Source of the DNA: Candidatus Gastranaerophilales bacterium
GTDB lineage: Bacteria; Cyanobacteriota; Vampirovibrionia; Gastranaerophilales; Gastranaerophilaceae
Reading direction: 5' to 3'
Assembly: GCA_944323995.1 (NCBI GenBank)
Contig: CALUUN010000002.1
Span: forward strand, 62,001 to 126,000
DNA length: 64,000 bases
Below the pieces are notes generated by a model. The model searched no databases, was not told where the DNA came from, and was given only the letters and a program-made list of their open reading frames with translations. This document shows positions 7,274 through 64,000 of this stretch, in pieces (the stretch's first letter is position 1; the number at the start of each line of letters is the position of its first letter). The position numbers were made by a program, and so were the translations under genes.

Positions 7274-7378
7274 AATTTCCGTTAATTTGCACTTAATTCT
7301 TATTTTTATTATACAATATATTTTATAAACATCTCAAATTTAACATAAATTTACACTACTTGGAGGATAAAACCCTTA

Positions 7379-15187: not shown

Positions 15188-15279
15188 TATTTTCTCTCTG
15201 TTTTTAACACTTAAATATATAAAAACATCCCAAAAAGCGCTATTTCAGCATGTTTTCATGTTGTTACATTTGTTTACAA

Positions 15280-18933: not shown

Positions 18934-19137
18934 AATGTCCTCCAATTCTTGTATTATGTAAATTATCCCCTATGCATTTATTAAAAATTTTTCTCCTGAA
19001 TAATTGACCTGACAAATGGATAAAATAACCGTATCATAAGGCACAAAATAGGCGTTATTACAGAGCTTCAGGGTGTTTTAAAATCACTTTTACATTTCGT
19101 TACAATCGCGGTTCTATTTAAACTTCAGTGCCGGAAA

Positions 19138-24318: not shown

Positions 24319-25113
24319 CTAAATATTCGCCGGTGATATACCCCAGTGCAGCTTATTTCTTAAAACCGAATAAAATTCCACGCCGTCAAGAAGCGCTAAC
24401 TTTGCGGTATAGCGGGATTTTTTAATTTCAATTTCTTTTGCAAATTCATAAAATTCCTGACCGTCTGTAGATGCAACATAGTTTGTCAAGTCTTTATCCG
24501 AACAAATTGTAATAACTTCGTTATCCGGAATAACAATCGGGCGTGCCGTAAGCGTATGCGGACAAATCGGAACGATTACAAACGCATTCAATAAAGGCGA
24601 GATTACGGGCCCGCCGGCTGAAAGTCCGTATGCGGTAGATCCTGTCGGAGTTGTTACGATAATTCCGTCCGCCAGATAATCACAGACCAGTTTTCCGTTG
24701 ATTTTTAAAGAGAATCTTGAAGTTCTTCCGGTTGTTGTGCCTTTTACGACAAAATCGTTCAGGGCAATTTTTTCACCGCTTTGAAGCATAATCCTGTCTT
24801 CTATCCGGAAATCTCCGTTCAAAATCTTTTCAATTGAAGTTTTTATATCCTCTTTTGAGGACTGGGACAAATACCCGAGCCTTCCGAGATTAATCCCGAA
24901 AATCGGTGTGGAGGTTCTGGCATAAAATCTTGCGGCTTTTAAAATTGTTCCGTCGCCGCCGATAACAAAAACAAAATCATAACCGCTTTTTAAATCATCT
25001 ATATCATGCGACTCGGCAGTCATACCGTGTTTCAAAAGCATCTGTTTGACCTGATGCATAACTTCTGCGGAATGCTCAATTGTTTTGTTATAACAAATTG
25101 CAAAATTTTTCAT
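24319..25113 (-). CDS. nadK: NAD kinase
   Basis: 264 residues. Phosphorylates NAD to NADP. The motifs are intact: FVIGGDGTILKAARF (GGDGT), GINLGRLGYLS, the NDFVVKGTTTGR loop (family NE/D motif) and GSTAYGLSAGGPVISP. The C-terminus ends GISPANI. The ATG at 25113 follows an extended -10 element so closely that the message is probably leaderless. It is divergent from yggS-sepF across a 370-bp regulatory region. Confidence 0.95.
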   Translation of the reverse strand: MKNFAICYNKTIEHSAEVMHQVKQMLLKHGMTAESHDIDDLKSGYDFVFVIGGDGTILKAARFYARTSTPIFGINLGRLGYLSQSSKEDIKTSIEKILNGDFRIEDRIMLQSGEKIALNDFVVKGTTTGRTSRFSLKINGKLVCDYLADGIIVTTPTGSTAYGLSAGGPVISPLLNAFVIVPICPHTLTARPIVIPDNEVITICSDKDLTNYVASTDGQEFYEFAKEIEIKKSRYTAKLALLDGVEFYSVLRNKLHWGISPANI

Positions 25114-25128: not shown

Positions 25129-25243
25129 TAAATAAATATCCCGCTCAACTCTGTATTTTAATAAAATCTCATATAAACGAAGGATAAATTTTATTCAAAA
25201 AAGGTTTATTCTTATAACAAGAAAACCAATTTTTTACCGGACT

Positions 25244-25309
25244 TTTACAAATTGTAAAGAAATTGGCATGGGATACATGCCCGAAAAGCTCAAGTATTAC
25301 AAATTGTAA
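25244..25309. promoter_or_regulatory. pair of identical 13-bp palindromes flanking a hairpin
   Basis: TTACAAATTGTAA occurs at 25245-25257 (extended to 15 bp by flanking T/A) and at 25297-25309. The centres are 52 bp apart, about five DNA turns, so both face the same side of the helix. Between them lies GGCATG-GGATA-CATGCC (25265-25281), a 6-bp stem hairpin. The arrangement suggests two operator sites for a dimeric regulator, possibly with looping. Confidence 0.5.
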
Positions 25310-25406
25310 CCAAAAATTAAGAAATATTAATTATGGCTGAAAACATGTCAACATCATGGTTTCGGGAGTAGTAAAAAAGGGGGTGAGCACATTAAAAATA
25401 AAATAG

Positions 25407-25435
25407 TTGTCCGCGTTAACAGGTTAGAGTACAAT
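25407..25435 (+). promoter_or_regulatory. promoter of yggS-sepF
   Basis: TTGTCC (25407-25412) and TACAAT (25430-25435) are 17 bp apart, the optimal sigma-70 spacing. Transcription would start near 25442, about 40 nt before the GTG start. This is one of few classical -35/-10 pairs in the window. Confidence 0.6.
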
Positions 25436-25483
25436 TAATATGTAGTCTGCTTTGCGGGCGGATTTCTTGTAGAGGTGAAGATA

Positions 25484-26146
25484 GTGCAGGAAACAATCAG
25501 AAAAAATCTTTTGCAGATACAAGAAGAAATTGCACCTTATAGACCAAATATCATTGCAGTTACCAAGTATTTTGACGAAAGCGCCATAATTGCGGCATAC
25601 AATGCGGGGTTAAGGGATTTCGGGGAATCAAGGGTAATTGAGGCATCACAAAAGATTAACAATCTGCCGCAGAAAATAAAAGAAAATTCAACGTTTCATT
25701 TTATCGGACATTTGCAGACGAATAAAGTGAAAAAAGCGATAGAAATTTTTGATTATATACACTCTGTGGATTCGCTCAGGCTTGCTGAAAAGATTTCGGA
25801 AGAAGCCGGCAAAGCCGGGAAAGTGCAAAAGGTTTTAATCGAGATTAATAATGCCGGCGAAGAACAAAAATTCGGATTTTCAAAAGAAGAAATTTTTGAA
25901 GCGTTCGGCGAGATAATTAATCTAAAGAACCTTGATGTAAAAGGCGTAATGAATATGGCGCCTTTCGGGGCTGATGAAGAAGAATTGACAAGACTTTTCT
26001 CTGAAATCAGACAAATACGGGATGCTCTTGAAAAACAATTCAACTGCAAATTAAAAGATATATCTATGGGGATGAGTCAGGATTACAAAATAGCAGCCCG
26101 CGAGGGTTCAACAATACTAAGGATAGGAAGAAAATTATTTAAGTAA
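25484..26146 (+). CDS. YggS/YlmE family PLP homeostasis protein
   Basis: 220 residues from a GTG at 25484, preceded at 8 nt by the near-perfect GAGGTGA; the in-frame GTG at 25475 lies inside that site. Fold-type III PLP-binding protein with the Lys in IIAVTKYFDE, FIGHLQTNK, the SVDS segment, INNAGEEQKFGF, and C-terminal SMGMSQDYKIAAREGSTILR. The family buffers free pyridoxal phosphate and has no known enzyme activity. Its place just upstream of sepF is widely conserved in Gram-positives and Cyanobacteria. Confidence 0.94.
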   Translation: MQETIRKNLLQIQEEIAPYRPNIIAVTKYFDESAIIAAYNAGLRDFGESRVIEASQKINNLPQKIKENSTFHFIGHLQTNKVKKAIEIFDYIHSVDSLRLAEKISEEAGKAGKVQKVLIEINNAGEEQKFGFSKEEIFEAFGEIINLKNLDVKGVMNMAPFGADEEELTRLFSEIRQIRDALEKQFNCKLKDISMGMSQDYKIAAREGSTILRIGRKLFK

Positions 26147-26164: not shown

Positions 26165-26659
26165 GTGGCAGTAGTAACAGACAAAATCAAATCAGTAGTA
26201 GACTTCTTGGTAAAAGGTTTTGAACCGAGAGAAACAATATTTGATGAAATGGCAGAAGAAATGGGCGACGAATACGAAGTACAGGACAATCTCGCAATTG
26301 ATCCGAAGTATTCATACCAAGCAGACAGAACAAACGATTTAAAAGTAGTAAATCATCCGAATTTCAGAGGATACGAAGTAATCGTAATGGAACCCCGCTC
26401 ATTTGATGATGCCGCAAACATAGTTCAGTATTTGAAAGACAGAAAGACAATCGTTTTAAATCTTCACTTGCTGGATAAAGAACAATCACAACGCACAATC
26501 GACTTTGTATGCGGTGCTGCACACGCTTTGAACGGCAAACCGCAAAAAGTAGGCGATCTGGTATTTGTATTCACACCGAGCAACGTAACTTTGTCTGTTG
26601 AATTGAATGCAAATCAAAATAAATTTAATGATTCTTTGTGGAGAGCTCCTTTACAATAG
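26165..26659 (+). CDS. sepF: cell division protein SepF
   Basis: 164 residues from a GTG start after GGAGGAA. An N-terminal helix that can bind membranes (KIKSVVDFLVKGF), a variable acidic linker, and the C-terminal SepF domain (about 70-160) with VVNHPNFRGYEVIVMEPRSF split over two strands, VLNLHLLDKEQSQRTIDF and GDLVFVFTPSNV. SepF polymerises, bundles FtsZ and ties the ring to the membrane in lineages that use it besides or instead of FtsA. It lies 18 nt after yggS in the same operon. Confidence 0.94.
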   Translation: MAVVTDKIKSVVDFLVKGFEPRETIFDEMAEEMGDEYEVQDNLAIDPKYSYQADRTNDLKVVNHPNFRGYEVIVMEPRSFDDAANIVQYLKDRKTIVLNLHLLDKEQSQRTIDFVCGAAHALNGKPQKVGDLVFVFTPSNVTLSVELNANQNKFNDSLWRAPLQ

Positions 26660-49934: not shown

Positions 49935-50004
49935 ATCTACCTCACCTGTAGTAGTAATACATGCTCTATTGTACCACTAATTTAACCAAAATAGGCTATA
50001 ATCT

Positions 50005-50016
50005 TTACAATTGTAA
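50005..50016. promoter_or_regulatory. 12-bp palindrome upstream of giant coiled-coil gene
   Basis: TTACAATTGTAA is the same sequence as the 25-kb palindromes without the central A. It lies about 46 bp before the TATAAT (50062-50067) of the coiled-coil gene, and could be a second site of the same regulator. Confidence 0.35.
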
Positions 50017-50061
50017 TAAATAAACTTAATATTTTTGCTAAATCATCCATAATTCTGGTAC

Positions 50062-50067: not shown

Positions 50068-50103
50068 AAGATGTAGGGATATTATTTGAGGAAATTAAAA
50101 AAT

Positions 50104-53100
50104 ATGGCACAAACAGTAGAAGAACTTGCTGAAATTTTAGATAACATGAAACTTGAAGCTGACCGTAATGCGGAAACTTTTGACAAACTTTTGCAGAGTA
50201 TCAACAACAAGATTGAATTTATGTCAACCGATACCGAAGCGGATGACTTGATAAAAGTTTATCTGACCGAACTTAAAAAAACTCTCGAAGAACGGCATGC
50301 GCTTGTTGTCGAAGAATTCGGCAAAATGGAAACTTCATTTAAATCCCTCACCGATGAGCAGTCACAGCTCATAAAAACCTCTCAGGCAAAGGAGATGTTT
50401 GACACTTTTTCCGATAATATGAAAACTATTGCACAGGAACTGTACAATCAAAAAGAACTTCTGGCGCAATACAACGAAAGATTTGCCGCTTTTTCAGCCG
50501 ACAAATCAGATAAAAACGAAATTATTACATCTGTTGCGGCTATCAGAAAAGATGTTGAAATCATTAACGAAAATTTTGAATCCTCAATTTCCGATATAAA
50601 TTCAAATATCCAGTCCATATTCAAAAATCTTATTGTAATGGATCCTACAGCACAAAACGATATTGTAAAACGCGAACTGGAAAACGTTTATCTTTCGGCA
50701 AATGCAATACTTTCTTCCCTGCATGTTGTCGATCAGAAAAACGACGATTTAGCGCAAACATTAGAAAAAATTTCCACAAAAGAAGATATTGAAAAAGCGG
50801 TTGAAAAACTGGATTCAATTGCCACAAAATCAAATGAAATTTTTGACAAATTCTCATCACTTGCCGAAAAATCGGATATTGATTCAATTATGAGTAAAAC
50901 ATCCGAAATATCGGATAAAATGAATGTTTTGCCGCTGCGTGAAGATTTGAGGTATTTTGCGGAAAAAACAAATGAACTTTCCGCACAGATTTCATCACTT
51001 CCGCAAAAAGATGATTTGCAAAATATTACGCACAATACTGTTGAAAATCTTCAGGCAAAACTTGATGAATTGTCTGTAAAATCGGAACTTGACGGAATAA
51101 TTAAAAAAGCGGAAGAAATTACCGAAAAATTTTCTCCCGTTGCCGAAAAAAGCGACATTGAAAACGTTCTTGTAAAATCGGTTGAAATCTCTGAAAAACT
51201 TGATTCCGCTGCAACAAAACAGGATATTGATCCGGTTTTTGAACAGGCAAAAGCGCTTGAAACCCAAATCGCGAGTCTTCCGCAGCAGTCTGACCTTGCA
51301 GGTGTTTATCAGACTGTTCATGAGTTTTCGGATATTATTGAAAATCTGCGAACAACTTTCCACAGCGCAAACGAAGACACTAACCGGATGATTAATGAAC
51401 ATCTTGACCGCTTAAATTCAACGCTCTCCGATGTCGTAACCGAAAAAGATTTCACCGGATTCAGACATGACCTTGCCGATTTTATTCAAAAAATTATTGA
51501 TAATTCCGCAAGTTTAAACGAAAATCTGAACATCAACAAAGAAGTTCTCGAAAAACTTATTACAGAAGTTGAGAACCTTGATATTCACCAAAACATTGAA
51601 ACCATCGCCAATGCTCTTGAAGGCTTGCAGGCAGGTTTTGCGCGCGATACCGAAAAAATAACCGGCGATATCAACAGTATTAACGAAAAAATTAATTCTC
51701 TGACAAATCAGCCGCTTGAAGAAAAAATAACCAACCTGAATGTCAGTTTGTTTGACGCTGCAGAAAGCCTGAAAAATATGCAATCCGAAGTTTTTGAAAA
51801 ACTTTCGCAAGATAACGAAGAAATTTCAAAACAGATTGAGAACCTGAATATTCCGGCAAATTTCGGCACGCTGAATAATTCAATGAGTGATATTCGCGAG
51901 ATATCGCTTCACGGCACCGAAAAAATTTCCTCTGATATTGAAAACTTAAGCAGCAAACTTGACAATCTGCCGGTCAATAACATTGAGCTGAAAATAGATA
52001 ATTTGAATACCGAACTGATTTCAAACGCGGGACGGCTGCAAAATATGCATGCCGGACTCACCGAACAATTGTCCGGTAATTTAAGAGAAATTAATGACAA
52101 AATAGACGGATTGAATTTTGAAAACAAATTTGAAACCATCGGCAGCAATATGGAAATTTTAAAAAACATAACCGCTGCAGGTGCTGAAAAGATTGACAAT
52201 CTAAACATTCAAGGCGAATTTGAAACAGTTAACGGCAATCTTGAAAATTTGAAAAATATCTCGCTTACCGGTCTGCAAAAAATTGATGAATTAAACCTTC
52301 AAAACAGATTTGAAAACCTTAACAGCAATCTTGAAAATTTGAAAAATATTTCGCTTTCAAGTGCGGAAAAAATCGACGAATTAAACACCGCCTGCAAACT
52401 TGATACAATAAACGGTTCCATAGAAAGTTTAAAAGACGCATCAATTGCAAACGCTGAAAGACTCTCGGGCGAAGTTGAAAATATAAGTTCAAAACTTGAT
52501 ACATTCACCACTTTAAGTTTTGAATCAAGAATTAACGATATCAAAGAGAACCTTGAAGAAACTTCCCAAAAACTTTCGGGTTTCCAAAATGATGTTATGG
52601 AAAAACTCTCTGAAGACGACAGTGAAAAATTCTCCAGTCTGCACAATAACATAGACTTTTTGAGGGAAACAATAACCTCTGCACAGACAGCCAACGAAAC
52701 AAGTTTGAGCGAAAAACTTCTTGCACTGCGGGATATGATAACCTCAAGTGATGAAGCAGGCAATGAAAAATTGGCAGAACTCCGTAACCAAATTGAAGAA
52801 TTTACGGACAAAGTCAGAACAATTTCCGGCGATACCGGAATAAAAATCAGCGAAGCGGTTGCCGAAATGAGTGCAATGAAAACCGAAGTTGAAAAAATTT
52901 CAAAAGATTTCACCGAATGGAATTACGGGCAGGAAACAAGAGATTCCAAAATAGTTAATATGATTTCTTCCGAACTTGGAGAACTCGGTGTTGCAATCTC
53001 GACTTTGCAGGATTCGGTACAGGCAGGAGTTCACCACGAACTTTCCAAAAACTCCGAAGTAGTTGAACAGCAAATTAATTCACTTATTGAACATATTGAC

Positions 53101-54969
53101 AATCTTAAAGATGAATTGAATTCAAAAGATGAAGAAGAACCTTTTGATTTTGAGGAACATTTCAAAGAAGTACGTGAAAAAATTACCGCCGTAAAACAGG
53201 AAATAAACCTGATAAATACCGACATAACCGATGCGGTAAATTCACAATCCGAAGCCGTTCAAAACGCCCTTTCAAATCTGCAGGACAGTCTGAATGCCTT
53301 CAGCAACCTTGAAGAAAACTTGTCCGCAAAATTTGAGGAAACAACTCTGGAAAACACCTCAAAAATATCAGAAGCAATTGAAGAGGTCAAAACACTTGTA
53401 AATAACGCCGCGGAAACTCTTAATGTAAAAGATGTTATCCTCACTTCCGCAGAAGATGTTAAACGCGCAATAATAAATAAAATTACAATAAGCGACACAA
53501 GCGAAGTCATAAAACACACTGTTACATCCTCCGCTGACGACGTTAAAAAGACAATAGGCGATAAAATTTTACAAACCGGCGAAGATTTAAAAAATCTTCT
53601 CTCGGTTGCAATGAACAACGACGACATAACCTGGGCAATCGACAATTTGAAAAGCGATTTGTCCGATAAAGTTACCAGAATCTTTAACGAAAGAAATAAT
53701 CTTGTTGAAATTCTCGATAAAACAAACGAAATTTCCGGTCACAACACAAAAATATCTGAGCTTCTTGATACTTTGAATCAGAAAATCGACATAATTGCAA
53801 TGACCGACAACGATGATGACTACGAAGTTCTGGATGAAATTGACGAAGTCAAAAACATGATATCATCCCAGCGTCAGCTTCTTGAAAATACAGCCGGCGC
53901 GGAAAAAGTTAACGCAATAGAAAATCAGCTTCAAGAACTCATTGATAAAATTGACACAATTGAAAACACTGACCTGAAAGATATGCGCGAAAGCATACTT
54001 TCAACCATCCTGAATGTATTTGAACAAATTTCATTCATTGAAGAATCCGAAGACATAAAAGATTTTGTTGAAGAAAAAACCGAAGAAATAAACAAAAACC
54101 TGATTGAAGTTAAACAGCAGCTAAAACAAATTGCGAACAATGACGACGGATATTCTTATACATTGCAGGATGTGGAATCCGATATCGCAAAACTTCGGCT
54201 TGTAATTAACGATATCTCAAATTCAACCTCAAATGAAGATATCGCAGATATTTCGGACAATATTCACAAAATAGTAACCTCTGTCGAAGATTTGCAAAAT
54301 TCTCTGACACAGGAACAAATTGCCGATTTAAAATCAGATTTTGAAAAGTTATCCGAAGATATTGTAAGCATAAGTTCAAGGACTAACAAACTTCTTCTTA
54401 CATCTGATGAATCCTACAATGCGTTAAATAACGGCCTGAACGATTTCAGCAATATAGTTTATAAACTTGAAGAAAGAATTAACTATCTTGACAACACCGA
54501 AATCACTGAACGCATTGAGAAAAAACTCGACAACGTCACAAACGTTGTGACAGGTTCGGCCAACTCTGACAAAGTAATGCGCCAGGCCTTAATGTATATG
54601 GGTGAATGGATTGATACGGCAAGTGAAAATATTGAAAATATAAACGAACAAACCGAAAAAATTGATAACCTTCAATCAAACATCGACACCATATGCCGTC
54701 AGACAAACCCGATTGAAGAAATTCATTCAATAATTAAAAAGCTCGAAACCCAGACCCCGAACCAGCTTGAGCTTATCAAAACTCTTGCCGAACGTTTTGA
54801 CAAACAACAGGAAAGAATTGACCGGCTTGAAATGCAGCTTGAAAAAATTCTTTCTGCGGTGGATGATATTGATGACACCAAATTAAGCAAAAAAGTTGAT
54901 AAAATAGACAAACAGCTCGCCAAATTGAGCGGCACAATAGAAAAGCTGGCATCTTATGTTGATGAATAA
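50104..54969 (+). CDS. giant coiled-coil protein, 1,621 residues
   Basis: Not assignable to a known family. Almost the whole chain is helical coiled coil rich in Glu, Lys, Ile, Leu, Asn and Ser, with no membrane helix, signal peptide or catalytic motif; only one or two Trp and almost no Cys. It contains six repeats of about 23 residues (K.DI...pattern ending SLPQ/SAAT) and four exact-length 30-residue repeats. It could be a cytoskeletal or scaffold element, like SMC-type or filament proteins, but lacks an ATPase head. The ATG at 50104 is used; GAGG lies 12 nt upstream, and an in-frame TTG at 50086 is an alternative. glcD-like gene overlaps its end. Confidence 0.85.
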   Translation: MAQTVEELAEILDNMKLEADRNAETFDKLLQSINNKIEFMSTDTEADDLIKVYLTELKKTLEERHALVVEEFGKMETSFKSLTDEQSQLIKTSQAKEMFDTFSDNMKTIAQELYNQKELLAQYNERFAAFSADKSDKNEIITSVAAIRKDVEIINENFESSISDINSNIQSIFKNLIVMDPTAQNDIVKRELENVYLSANAILSSLHVVDQKNDDLAQTLEKISTKEDIEKAVEKLDSIATKSNEIFDKFSSLAEKSDIDSIMSKTSEISDKMNVLPLREDLRYFAEKTNELSAQISSLPQKDDLQNITHNTVENLQAKLDELSVKSELDGIIKKAEEITEKFSPVAEKSDIENVLVKSVEISEKLDSAATKQDIDPVFEQAKALETQIASLPQQSDLAGVYQTVHEFSDIIENLRTTFHSANEDTNRMINEHLDRLNSTLSDVVTEKDFTGFRHDLADFIQKIIDNSASLNENLNINKEVLEKLITEVENLDIHQNIETIANALEGLQAGFARDTEKITGDINSINEKINSLTNQPLEEKITNLNVSLFDAAESLKNMQSEVFEKLSQDNEEISKQIENLNIPANFGTLNNSMSDIREISLHGTEKISSDIENLSSKLDNLPVNNIELKIDNLNTELISNAGRLQNMHAGLTEQLSGNLREINDKIDGLNFENKFETIGSNMEILKNITAAGAEKIDNLNIQGEFETVNGNLENLKNISLTGLQKIDELNLQNRFENLNSNLENLKNISLSSAEKIDELNTACKLDTINGSIESLKDASIANAERLSGEVENISSKLDTFTTLSFESRINDIKENLEETSQKLSGFQNDVMEKLSEDDSEKFSSLHNNIDFLRETITSAQTANETSLSEKLLALRDMITSSDEAGNEKLAELRNQIEEFTDKVRTISGDTGIKISEAVAEMSAMKTEVEKISKDFTEWNYGQETRDSKIVNMISSELGELGVAISTLQDSVQAGVHHELSKNSEVVEQQINSLIEHIDNLKDELNSKDEEEPFDFEEHFKEVREKITAVKQEINLINTDITDAVNSQSEAVQNALSNLQDSLNAFSNLEENLSAKFEETTLENTSKISEAIEEVKTLVNNAAETLNVKDVILTSAEDVKRAIINKITISDTSEVIKHTVTSSADDVKKTIGDKILQTGEDLKNLLSVAMNNDDITWAIDNLKSDLSDKVTRIFNERNNLVEILDKTNEISGHNTKISELLDTLNQKIDIIAMTDNDDDYEVLDEIDEVKNMISSQRQLLENTAGAEKVNAIENQLQELIDKIDTIENTDLKDMRESILSTILNVFEQISFIEESEDIKDFVEEKTEEINKNLIEVKQQLKQIANNDDGYSYTLQDVESDIAKLRLVINDISNSTSNEDIADISDNIHKIVTSVEDLQNSLTQEQIADLKSDFEKLSEDIVSISSRTNKLLLTSDESYNALNNGLNDFSNIVYKLEERINYLDNTEITERIEKKLDNVTNVVTGSANSDKVMRQALMYMGEWIDTASENIENINEQTEKIDNLQSNIDTICRQTNPIEEIHSIIKKLETQTPNQLELIKTLAERFDKQQERIDRLEMQLEKILSAVDDIDDTKLSKKVDKIDKQLAKLSGTIEKLASYVDE
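50869..51285 (+). repeat. in-gene tandem repeat, 69/72-nt units x6
   Basis: Units start at 50869, 50938, 51007 (72 nt), 51079, 51148 and 51217. Each codes for 23-24 residues beginning K/R-x-D/E-I/L and carrying EIS/ELS-x-K/Q in the middle. Identity between units is moderate, so the duplication is old. Confidence 0.8.
52114..52473 (+). repeat. in-gene tandem repeat, four 90-nt units
   Basis: Units start at 52114, 52204, 52294 and 52384, exactly 90 nt each. Each codes for 30 residues with the core NLENLKNIS and end EKIDEL. Thirty residues is two 15-residue blocks, not a heptad multiple, which suggests a right-handed or mixed coiled coil. Confidence 0.88.
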
Positions 54970-58744: not shown

Positions 58745-58899
58745 AACCACCCCTTTTATTTAATTATACTATAAAACTTTTAATAAAGAATAAAAAAACA
58801 GACCTGTTACATAAGTTTACAAATTAATAAAAAAAGTAAATAATCAAACCGCAATAAACTTTATAAATATAAGGTAATGTGTAATCGGAGAATTAGGTT

Positions 58900-59977: not shown

Positions 59978-60151
59978 CAGGCATTATAACAGGGTTTCAG
60001 CCCCATCGCAACAATATTTACAAAACGTTACATTTGATTTATATGTCAGATTTAAGATTAAAAATCAATTTAATTTTTTAGTGCATTTTTCCGGTGCACA
60101 TATATTTTCAATAAAATTTAACTCCGCTCCCGCGATAAAAAAAATAACATG

Positions 60152-63693: not shown

Positions 63694-64000
63694 TTATAGA
63701 TATATTTTAAGTGTCAAGTGGATATTATCCCCGACAATCACGCCAGCAGGGGCTTTGACCACCTTCAGCGTATCATTAACAGTTCGTAACACAATATTAT
63801 CAATCTGGGTGGAACCGCTTGACTGGAGTATCTTTGAGTCCTTTACAACACCGTCTTTTGAAACAACCACATCAACCTGAATTTGATTGGAATAAGCATA
63901 TTCGGTTGCGAGCAAAAGATCGCTTGATAGTGAAAGTTTCAAACTTTTGCCGGCGGTTTGGAGATATTTTTTGAAATCGTTATTATACGAAACATAGTCA
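63694..64000 (-). CDS. TonB C-terminal-like protein, partial (5' end beyond right edge)
   Basis: The reading frame is open to the window end, so at least 101 residues are seen. The pattern NQIQVDVVVSKDGVVKDSKI, then LQSSGSTQIDNIVLRTV and a closing hydrophobic strand, matches the TonB C-terminal domain (energy transduction across the periplasm). The upstream part that would hold the membrane anchor is missing. A TTG at 63942 is only an internal codon. The family call is likely but short. Confidence 0.7.
   Translation of the reverse strand, partial: DYVSYNNDFKKYLQTAGKSLKLSLSSDLLLATEYAYSNQIQVDVVVSKDGVVKDSKILQSSGSTQIDNIVLRTVNDTLKVVKAPAGVIVGDNIHLTLKIYL

Follow-up and report, generated by a model that had tools for sequence, protein, structure and literature searches.

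HLR1-like direct repeats upstream of yggS-sepF in a Gastranaerophilales genome, with RpaB as their putative binder

The window, a stretch of 64,000 nucleotides from a 1.75-Mb Candidatus Gastranaerophilales genome in 35 contigs, contains nadK (24319-25113, minus strand) and, on the plus strand, yggS/pipY (25475-26146; PF01168), which encodes a PLP-binding protein of COG0325, followed by the cell-division gene sepF (26165-26659; PF04472), identities that an earlier note on this DNA had assigned and that Pfam confirmed. Alignment with relatives suggests that yggS probably starts at the GTG at 25484. The region between nadK and yggS comprises two copies of TTACAAATTGTAA, at 25245-25257 and 25297-25309, with starts 52 bp apart; the earlier note had recognized the pair, placing its beginning one base early, at 25244. 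Each copy lies within a longer, HLR1-like direct repeat on the plus strand, namely (i) box 1, TTTTAC-AAAT-TGTAAA (25243-25258), containing the first palindrome, and (ii) box 2, TATTAC-AAAT-TGTAAC (25295-25310), containing the second. These are followed by (iii) a degenerate third module, AATTAA-GAAA-TATTAA (25315-25330, plus strand), in phase with the 10-bp period of box 2, (iv) an inverted repeat, CTGAAA-N-CATG-N7-CATG-N-TTTCRG (25336-25366, no strand assigned), and (v) a predicted core promoter of yggS-sepF, TTGTCC-N17-TACAAT (25407-25435, plus strand). The hairpin reported between the two sites, GGCATG/CATGCC at 25265-25281, exists in the window and is intact in just 10 of the 13 genus sequences, as judged by eye from the alignment; its GGCATG is also seen near box 2 in many loci of the family, the hairpin itself not always being kept.

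The window contains three palindromes of the form TTACA-N0-3-TGTAA, where 100 shuffles predict 0.46, and the genome-wide search for TTACAAN0-1TTGTAA proposed in the earlier note returned five places, three of them in the window. A 12-bp relative, TTACAATTGTAA, is found as described at 50005-50016, upstream of a giant coiled-coil gene (50086-54969), whose probable start, from a comparison of 16 genomes, is the ATG of ATGGCACAAACAG (MAQTVEEL...) and not the TTG at 50086. The site before this gene, TTTACAATTGTAATAAA (50004-50020, plus strand), is conserved and carries a 3-nt spacer; by eye, TTTACAATT(G/T)TAA is conserved and its left half, TTTACA, is kept in 16/16 genomes, with the 12-bp palindrome intact in 10/16. 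The link drawn from the yggS sites to the giant gene is thus weak: the site is conserved, but it is not the same element, given the spacer of 3 nt rather than 4 nt and the inconstant palindrome. It may be at most a partial box, in which the regulator of the yggS boxes would find a single half-site.

The gene yggS is present in 14 of the 16 genus genomes, the source genome counted in. A block of approximately 280 bp 5' of yggS displays a mean pairwise identity of 83%, compared with 80% for yggS itself (13 genus sequences, omitting L018, whose contig starts after box 1). Farther upstream, on the nadK side, alignment between the genus genomes breaks down, which assigns the element to yggS and makes nadK a local neighbour. 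Most genus loci hold both sites with 51-52 bp between them, and the retention of both near sepF in related genomes, on which the earlier note had staked its reading, is what was found. Box 1 is recognizable in 11 of the 12 genus relatives holding that stretch, being lost in L014, and box 2 is changed in L013 and L014. Outside the genus box 1 appears in a minority only, the strict repeat standing at its offset in 14/79 named loci (genus members counted). Box 2, on the other hand, recurs at a fixed place 5' of yggS in the 39 family loci examined, which comprise the 14 genus loci and 25 of 26 fetched loci, one unparsable sequence (L167) having been dropped. The third module is conserved in the genus and kept in most, not all, of the family loci. 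A second set of 80 named loci overlaps the first, 30 of them sharing an identical yggS stretch with its members. Conservation across genus, family and named loci agrees with the proposal that conserved, probably regulatory, sites precede the division operon. An open reading frame of about 30 codons runs through the promoter region in L014, L015, L017 and L019 (MSKSWFRELIKGGE..LEYN in L017; by eye); a small conserved peptide (ATG...) encoded in the block was considered and rejected, its frames being broken in most of the sequences in alignments read by eye.

The conservation follows a direct repeat. In box 2, YNTWAM-N4-TGTWAM is found in 37/39 family loci and the palindromic ends TTAC..GTAA in 21/39; among the 80 named loci the strict repeat occurs in 55, the palindrome in 20 and a relaxed form, [TC][GA]TWAM-N4-T[GA]TWAM, a consensus picked after the data had been seen, in all 80. 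The two half-sites are oriented as in HLR1, with 10 bp between their starts. Each yggS box of the window has one imperfect half, TTTTAC in box 1 and TATTAC in box 2, and compared to KTTACAWW one half of each box matches 8/8 and the other about 5/8; the second-position A of box 2 is itself conserved (37/39). The fifth position of TTACA is variable (A 25, G 9, C 4, T 1; n=39), whereas its palindromic partner T is invariant (39/39), and the substitutions TTAC to TTAA and GTAA to GTTA in the 39 family loci break the palindrome and preserve TGTWAM.

These patterns bear directly on the original interpretation of the sites as palindromes bound by an unknown dimeric regulator, which we consider very improbable. 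The palindromes are perfect in the source genome, and each genus genome has 3-9 occurrences of TTACRAAWTGTAA, compared with 0-2 when the pattern is reversed, yet the palindrome is often absent where the direct repeat is retained, its arms are not symmetrically conserved, and the asymmetric substitutions respect the 10-bp repeat; moreover, the palindrome-making half TGTTAC appears 7 times in 52 N4 sites, among the matches listed, with 6.9 expected from independent columns, and the candidate regulator, RpaB, is of a known kind. Because the direct repeat is kept where the palindrome often is not, and position 5 of TTACA varies opposite an invariant partner, the palindrome is better regarded as a by-product, one that the freedom of W (A/T) and M (A/C) readily generates, since TNTTAC followed by TGTAAM reads TTAC...GTAA. 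Readings based on GlnR/TnrA-like or LysR-type operators, whose consensuses we take to be TGTNA-N7-TNACA and T-N11-A, respectively, were dropped once the asymmetry of the substitutions appeared. A chance or compositional origin, which the AT-richness of the intergenic DNA and the shortness of the motif might favour, is already refuted by conservation and deserves almost no weight: the position is fixed, any other 4-nt offset block of the 80 named loci giving at most 2 matches to the relaxed repeat, and box 2 together with the inverted repeat is found in 87 of 292 phylum genomes against 0 for the reversed control. The best explanation of the two 13-bp palindromes, as far as sequence comparison goes, is that they form the central portions of two HLR1-type boxes, with TGTWAM half-sites, a 4-nt spacer and a 10-bp period.

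The boxes at yggS-sepF are part of an architecture of nearly constant dimensions. In the 80 named loci, all of which contain the inverted repeat, 48-49 nt separate the first CATG of the repeat from the start of box 2, and the -10 element, varying as TANAAT, lies 132-136 bp from that start in nearly all loci. The predicted promoter would place the yggS transcription start near 25442 and hence box 2 near -140 and box 1 near -192. Both positions fall outside the ranges reported for RpaB in PMC13421787, from -66 to -45 for activation and from -38 to +23 for repression. The pattern GAAANCATGN6-7CATGNTTTY occurs in 14/16 genus genomes, namely those with yggS, as a single copy that always precedes this gene; other genomic copies, sought as a route to the regulator of the repeat, were absent from the genus genomes. 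All 87 genomes with the composite of box 2 and inverted repeat fall within the 130 of this family, compared with 0 of the 162 outside (counted from the listing), and a few of the matches, such as that of G088 at a contig end, may lie elsewhere than at yggS. A minus-strand promoter, TTGACA..TAATAT, was also considered and discarded, its -35 not being conserved in the family alignment (by eye).

Beyond this locus, the near matches of the genome include many asymmetric forms, for instance TGTAAC-GAAA-TGTAAA and TGTTAA-GAAA-TGTAAA, and these led to a search for TGTWAM-N2..7-TGTWAM. Among the first 100 of 132 matches, spacers of 2 to 7 nt account for 7, 12, 52, 14, 9 and 6 cases (binomial p 6e-16). 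The N4 matches are intergenic in 41/51 cases against 16/48 for the other spacers (Fisher p 2e-6), counted over 99 of the matches listed after removal of near-edge and duplicate ones. In the window, further TGTWAM-N4-TGTWAM matches are located at 7340-7355, 15263-15278, 19089-19104, 58806-58821, 60017-60032 and 63776-63791; the match at 19089 precedes a gene adjoining ftsZ, and that at 7340 precedes a gene that we take to be, likely, nadA. Sites of the genus recur before orthologous genes at similar distances. Within the genus, TTACRAAWTGTAA is found before a CheY-like regulator (PF00072) associated with a type II/IV secretion ATPase (PF00437 with MshEN), before several large proteins to which Pfam assigns no family and before a gene next to ftsZ, and the N4 sites of the source genome add further genes of these kinds. 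Pfam assigned no family at E 0.001 to 5 of ten proteins of the candidate regulon, and one more had only a LysM match below the cut-off. Relative to predicted starts and judged by eye, the box lies near -50 at the operon of the CheY-like regulator and secretion ATPase and near -60 at the giant coiled-coil gene. The best reading of these distributions is that the boxes belong to a broad regulon. In L030, L031, L039 and L079 (near 1501-1600), TAAASTTT/TAAAGATT-N11-GCCGTWA is seen 3' of the box, before MGMAASQARFLGL... genes, and presumably resembles a sigma-28/FliA promoter.

HLR1 is described as KTTACAWW-N2-KTTACAWW, bound by RpaB (PMC13421787; PMC9241938), with examples in PMC6331805; read on the other strand it becomes TGTAAM-N4-TGTAAM. 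The genome encodes three OmpR-family regulators, L146, L147 and L148, of which L146 alone passes the RpaB model (NCBIfam NF045944; 362 bits, cut-off 330) and represents the RpaB orthologue, L147 and L148 scoring 209 and 212 bits, under the cut-off; L147 adjoins a histidine kinase. RpaB above the cut-off is found in 15/16 genus genomes and in 1/14 control genomes. A search of solved structures with RpaB disclosed only the expected OmpR-family relatives, MtrA being the best and RpaA the third. A box within one mismatch before rpaB itself was found in none of 14 of the 15 genomes, the source genome showing one weak match, and autoregulation of rpaB was rejected for want of a supported box. RpaB-type boxes are likely to control yggS-sepF, with RpaB as the putative binder. 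Counting against this reading are the imperfect half of each yggS box, the predicted positions beyond the published ranges, the want of a box before rpaB and the presence of two further OmpR-family regulators.

The same boxes could instead be read by another OmpR-family response regulator, L147 or L148, an alternative that we hold to be unlikely, if the more substantial of those left. Both paralogues are encoded in the genome with the quoted similarity to the RpaB model, and in G013, a genus member 99% complete, without yggS and without RpaB over the cut-off, proteins scoring like the two paralogues were found and the N4 spacer occupies 21 of 50 listed pairs (165 in all); of G010 and G014, only G010 contributed pairs to the count, namely the first 50 of 100 listed (144 in all). 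Because the N4 preference persists, G013 is uninformative as a natural knock-out of RpaB and speaks mildly against RpaB as the sole binder. The absences in G013 reflect either loss or an assembly gap, and the persistence would be due to such a gap or to a different binder. The missing RpaB may itself result from a gap in the assembly, and both the motif and its N4 spacing fit the published RpaB box, L146 alone exceeding the RpaB cut-off. Still less probable is the reading of the conserved block as chiefly an RNA element, a leader or small RNA starting near box 2 with the repeat at 25336-25366 as its hairpin. Arm pairs 5 and 6 of the repeat show G-T/T-G changes in 13 and 22 of 39 loci, as RNA pairing would allow, so that an RNA hairpin is conceivable, and the fold of 25230-25475 gives a z of -2.4. 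However, the innermost arm pair is Watson-Crick in 1/39, Rfam returned no match at gathering level and chance-level matches only at E up to 5, no family-conserved -10 is seen by eye between box 2 and the repeat, and an RNA element would leave the direct-repeat grammar of the boxes unexplained.

Returning to RpaB as the probable binder, phosphorylated RpaB would bind box 2, together with the third module in phase with it, and also box 1 in loci that have one, approximately 140 and 190 bp 5' of the predicted yggS-sepF start, and would act on the promoter across a fixed distance, with whichever sign, probably jointly with whatever recognizes the inverted repeat lying between the boxes and the promoter. 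The expression of yggS/pipY and sepF would thereby follow a signal common to a regulon whose genes concern the surface, secretion and signalling.

The arrangement resembles the HLR1/RpaB system of photosynthetic cyanobacteria in its half-sites of 6-8 bp in direct repeat with a period of 10, in the OmpR-family protein RpaB and in the many sites upstream of genes. It differs in that the yggS boxes are predicted to lie far upstream, the first half of box 2 is TATTAM, the neighbouring element is a family-specific inverted repeat, and the host group is described as lacking photosynthesis (PMC3787301). Boxes of WalR/YycF (VicR) in Firmicutes, reported as TGTWAH-N5-TGTWAH with a link to the envelope and division (PMC4168254; PMC10746227), share the half-site and the response-regulator family; nevertheless, the preferred spacer here is 4 and not 5 nt, and the YycF model, with a cut-off of 340 bits, gives the RpaB protein only 227. 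Regarding the target genes, pipY (COG0325) followed by sepF is reported to be common in cyanobacteria, where PipY overexpression lengthens cells (PMC5504682); the order yggS/pipY then sepF is preserved here, although, unlike the pipX-pipY-sepF cluster, yggS is the first of a pair.

RpaB is known as a master regulator of light and redox responses, and was reportedly seen by Moronta-Barrios in 2013 to restrain cell size, with which boxes at yggS-sepF agree; the link to pipY-sepF also agrees with the reported effect of PipY on cell length (PMC5504682). A 2013 paper reported homologues of RpaB and NblS in Melainabacteria, which lack photosynthesis, and noted that RpaB there perhaps has another function (PMC3787301); a search of one open library found no paper joining HLR1 with Vampirovibrio. 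A regulon defined by its boxes in such a genome makes the question of RpaB targets without photosynthesis a testable one. The locus is best explained by an element of a known kind whose host is unexpected, the inverted repeat at a fixed distance being the unexplained and most novel part. Tentatively, and with more doubt than confidence, the pairing of RpaB with HLR1 may be older than, or independent of, photosynthesis, and in gut Gastranaerophilales may run an intact regulon of envelope, secretion and division genes, a WalR-like job, acting at yggS-sepF by way of a module confined to the family and constant in length, in which an HLR1 box, 48-49 bp, the inverted repeat and a promoter 132-136 bp from the box succeed one another and the repeat would belong to another partner.
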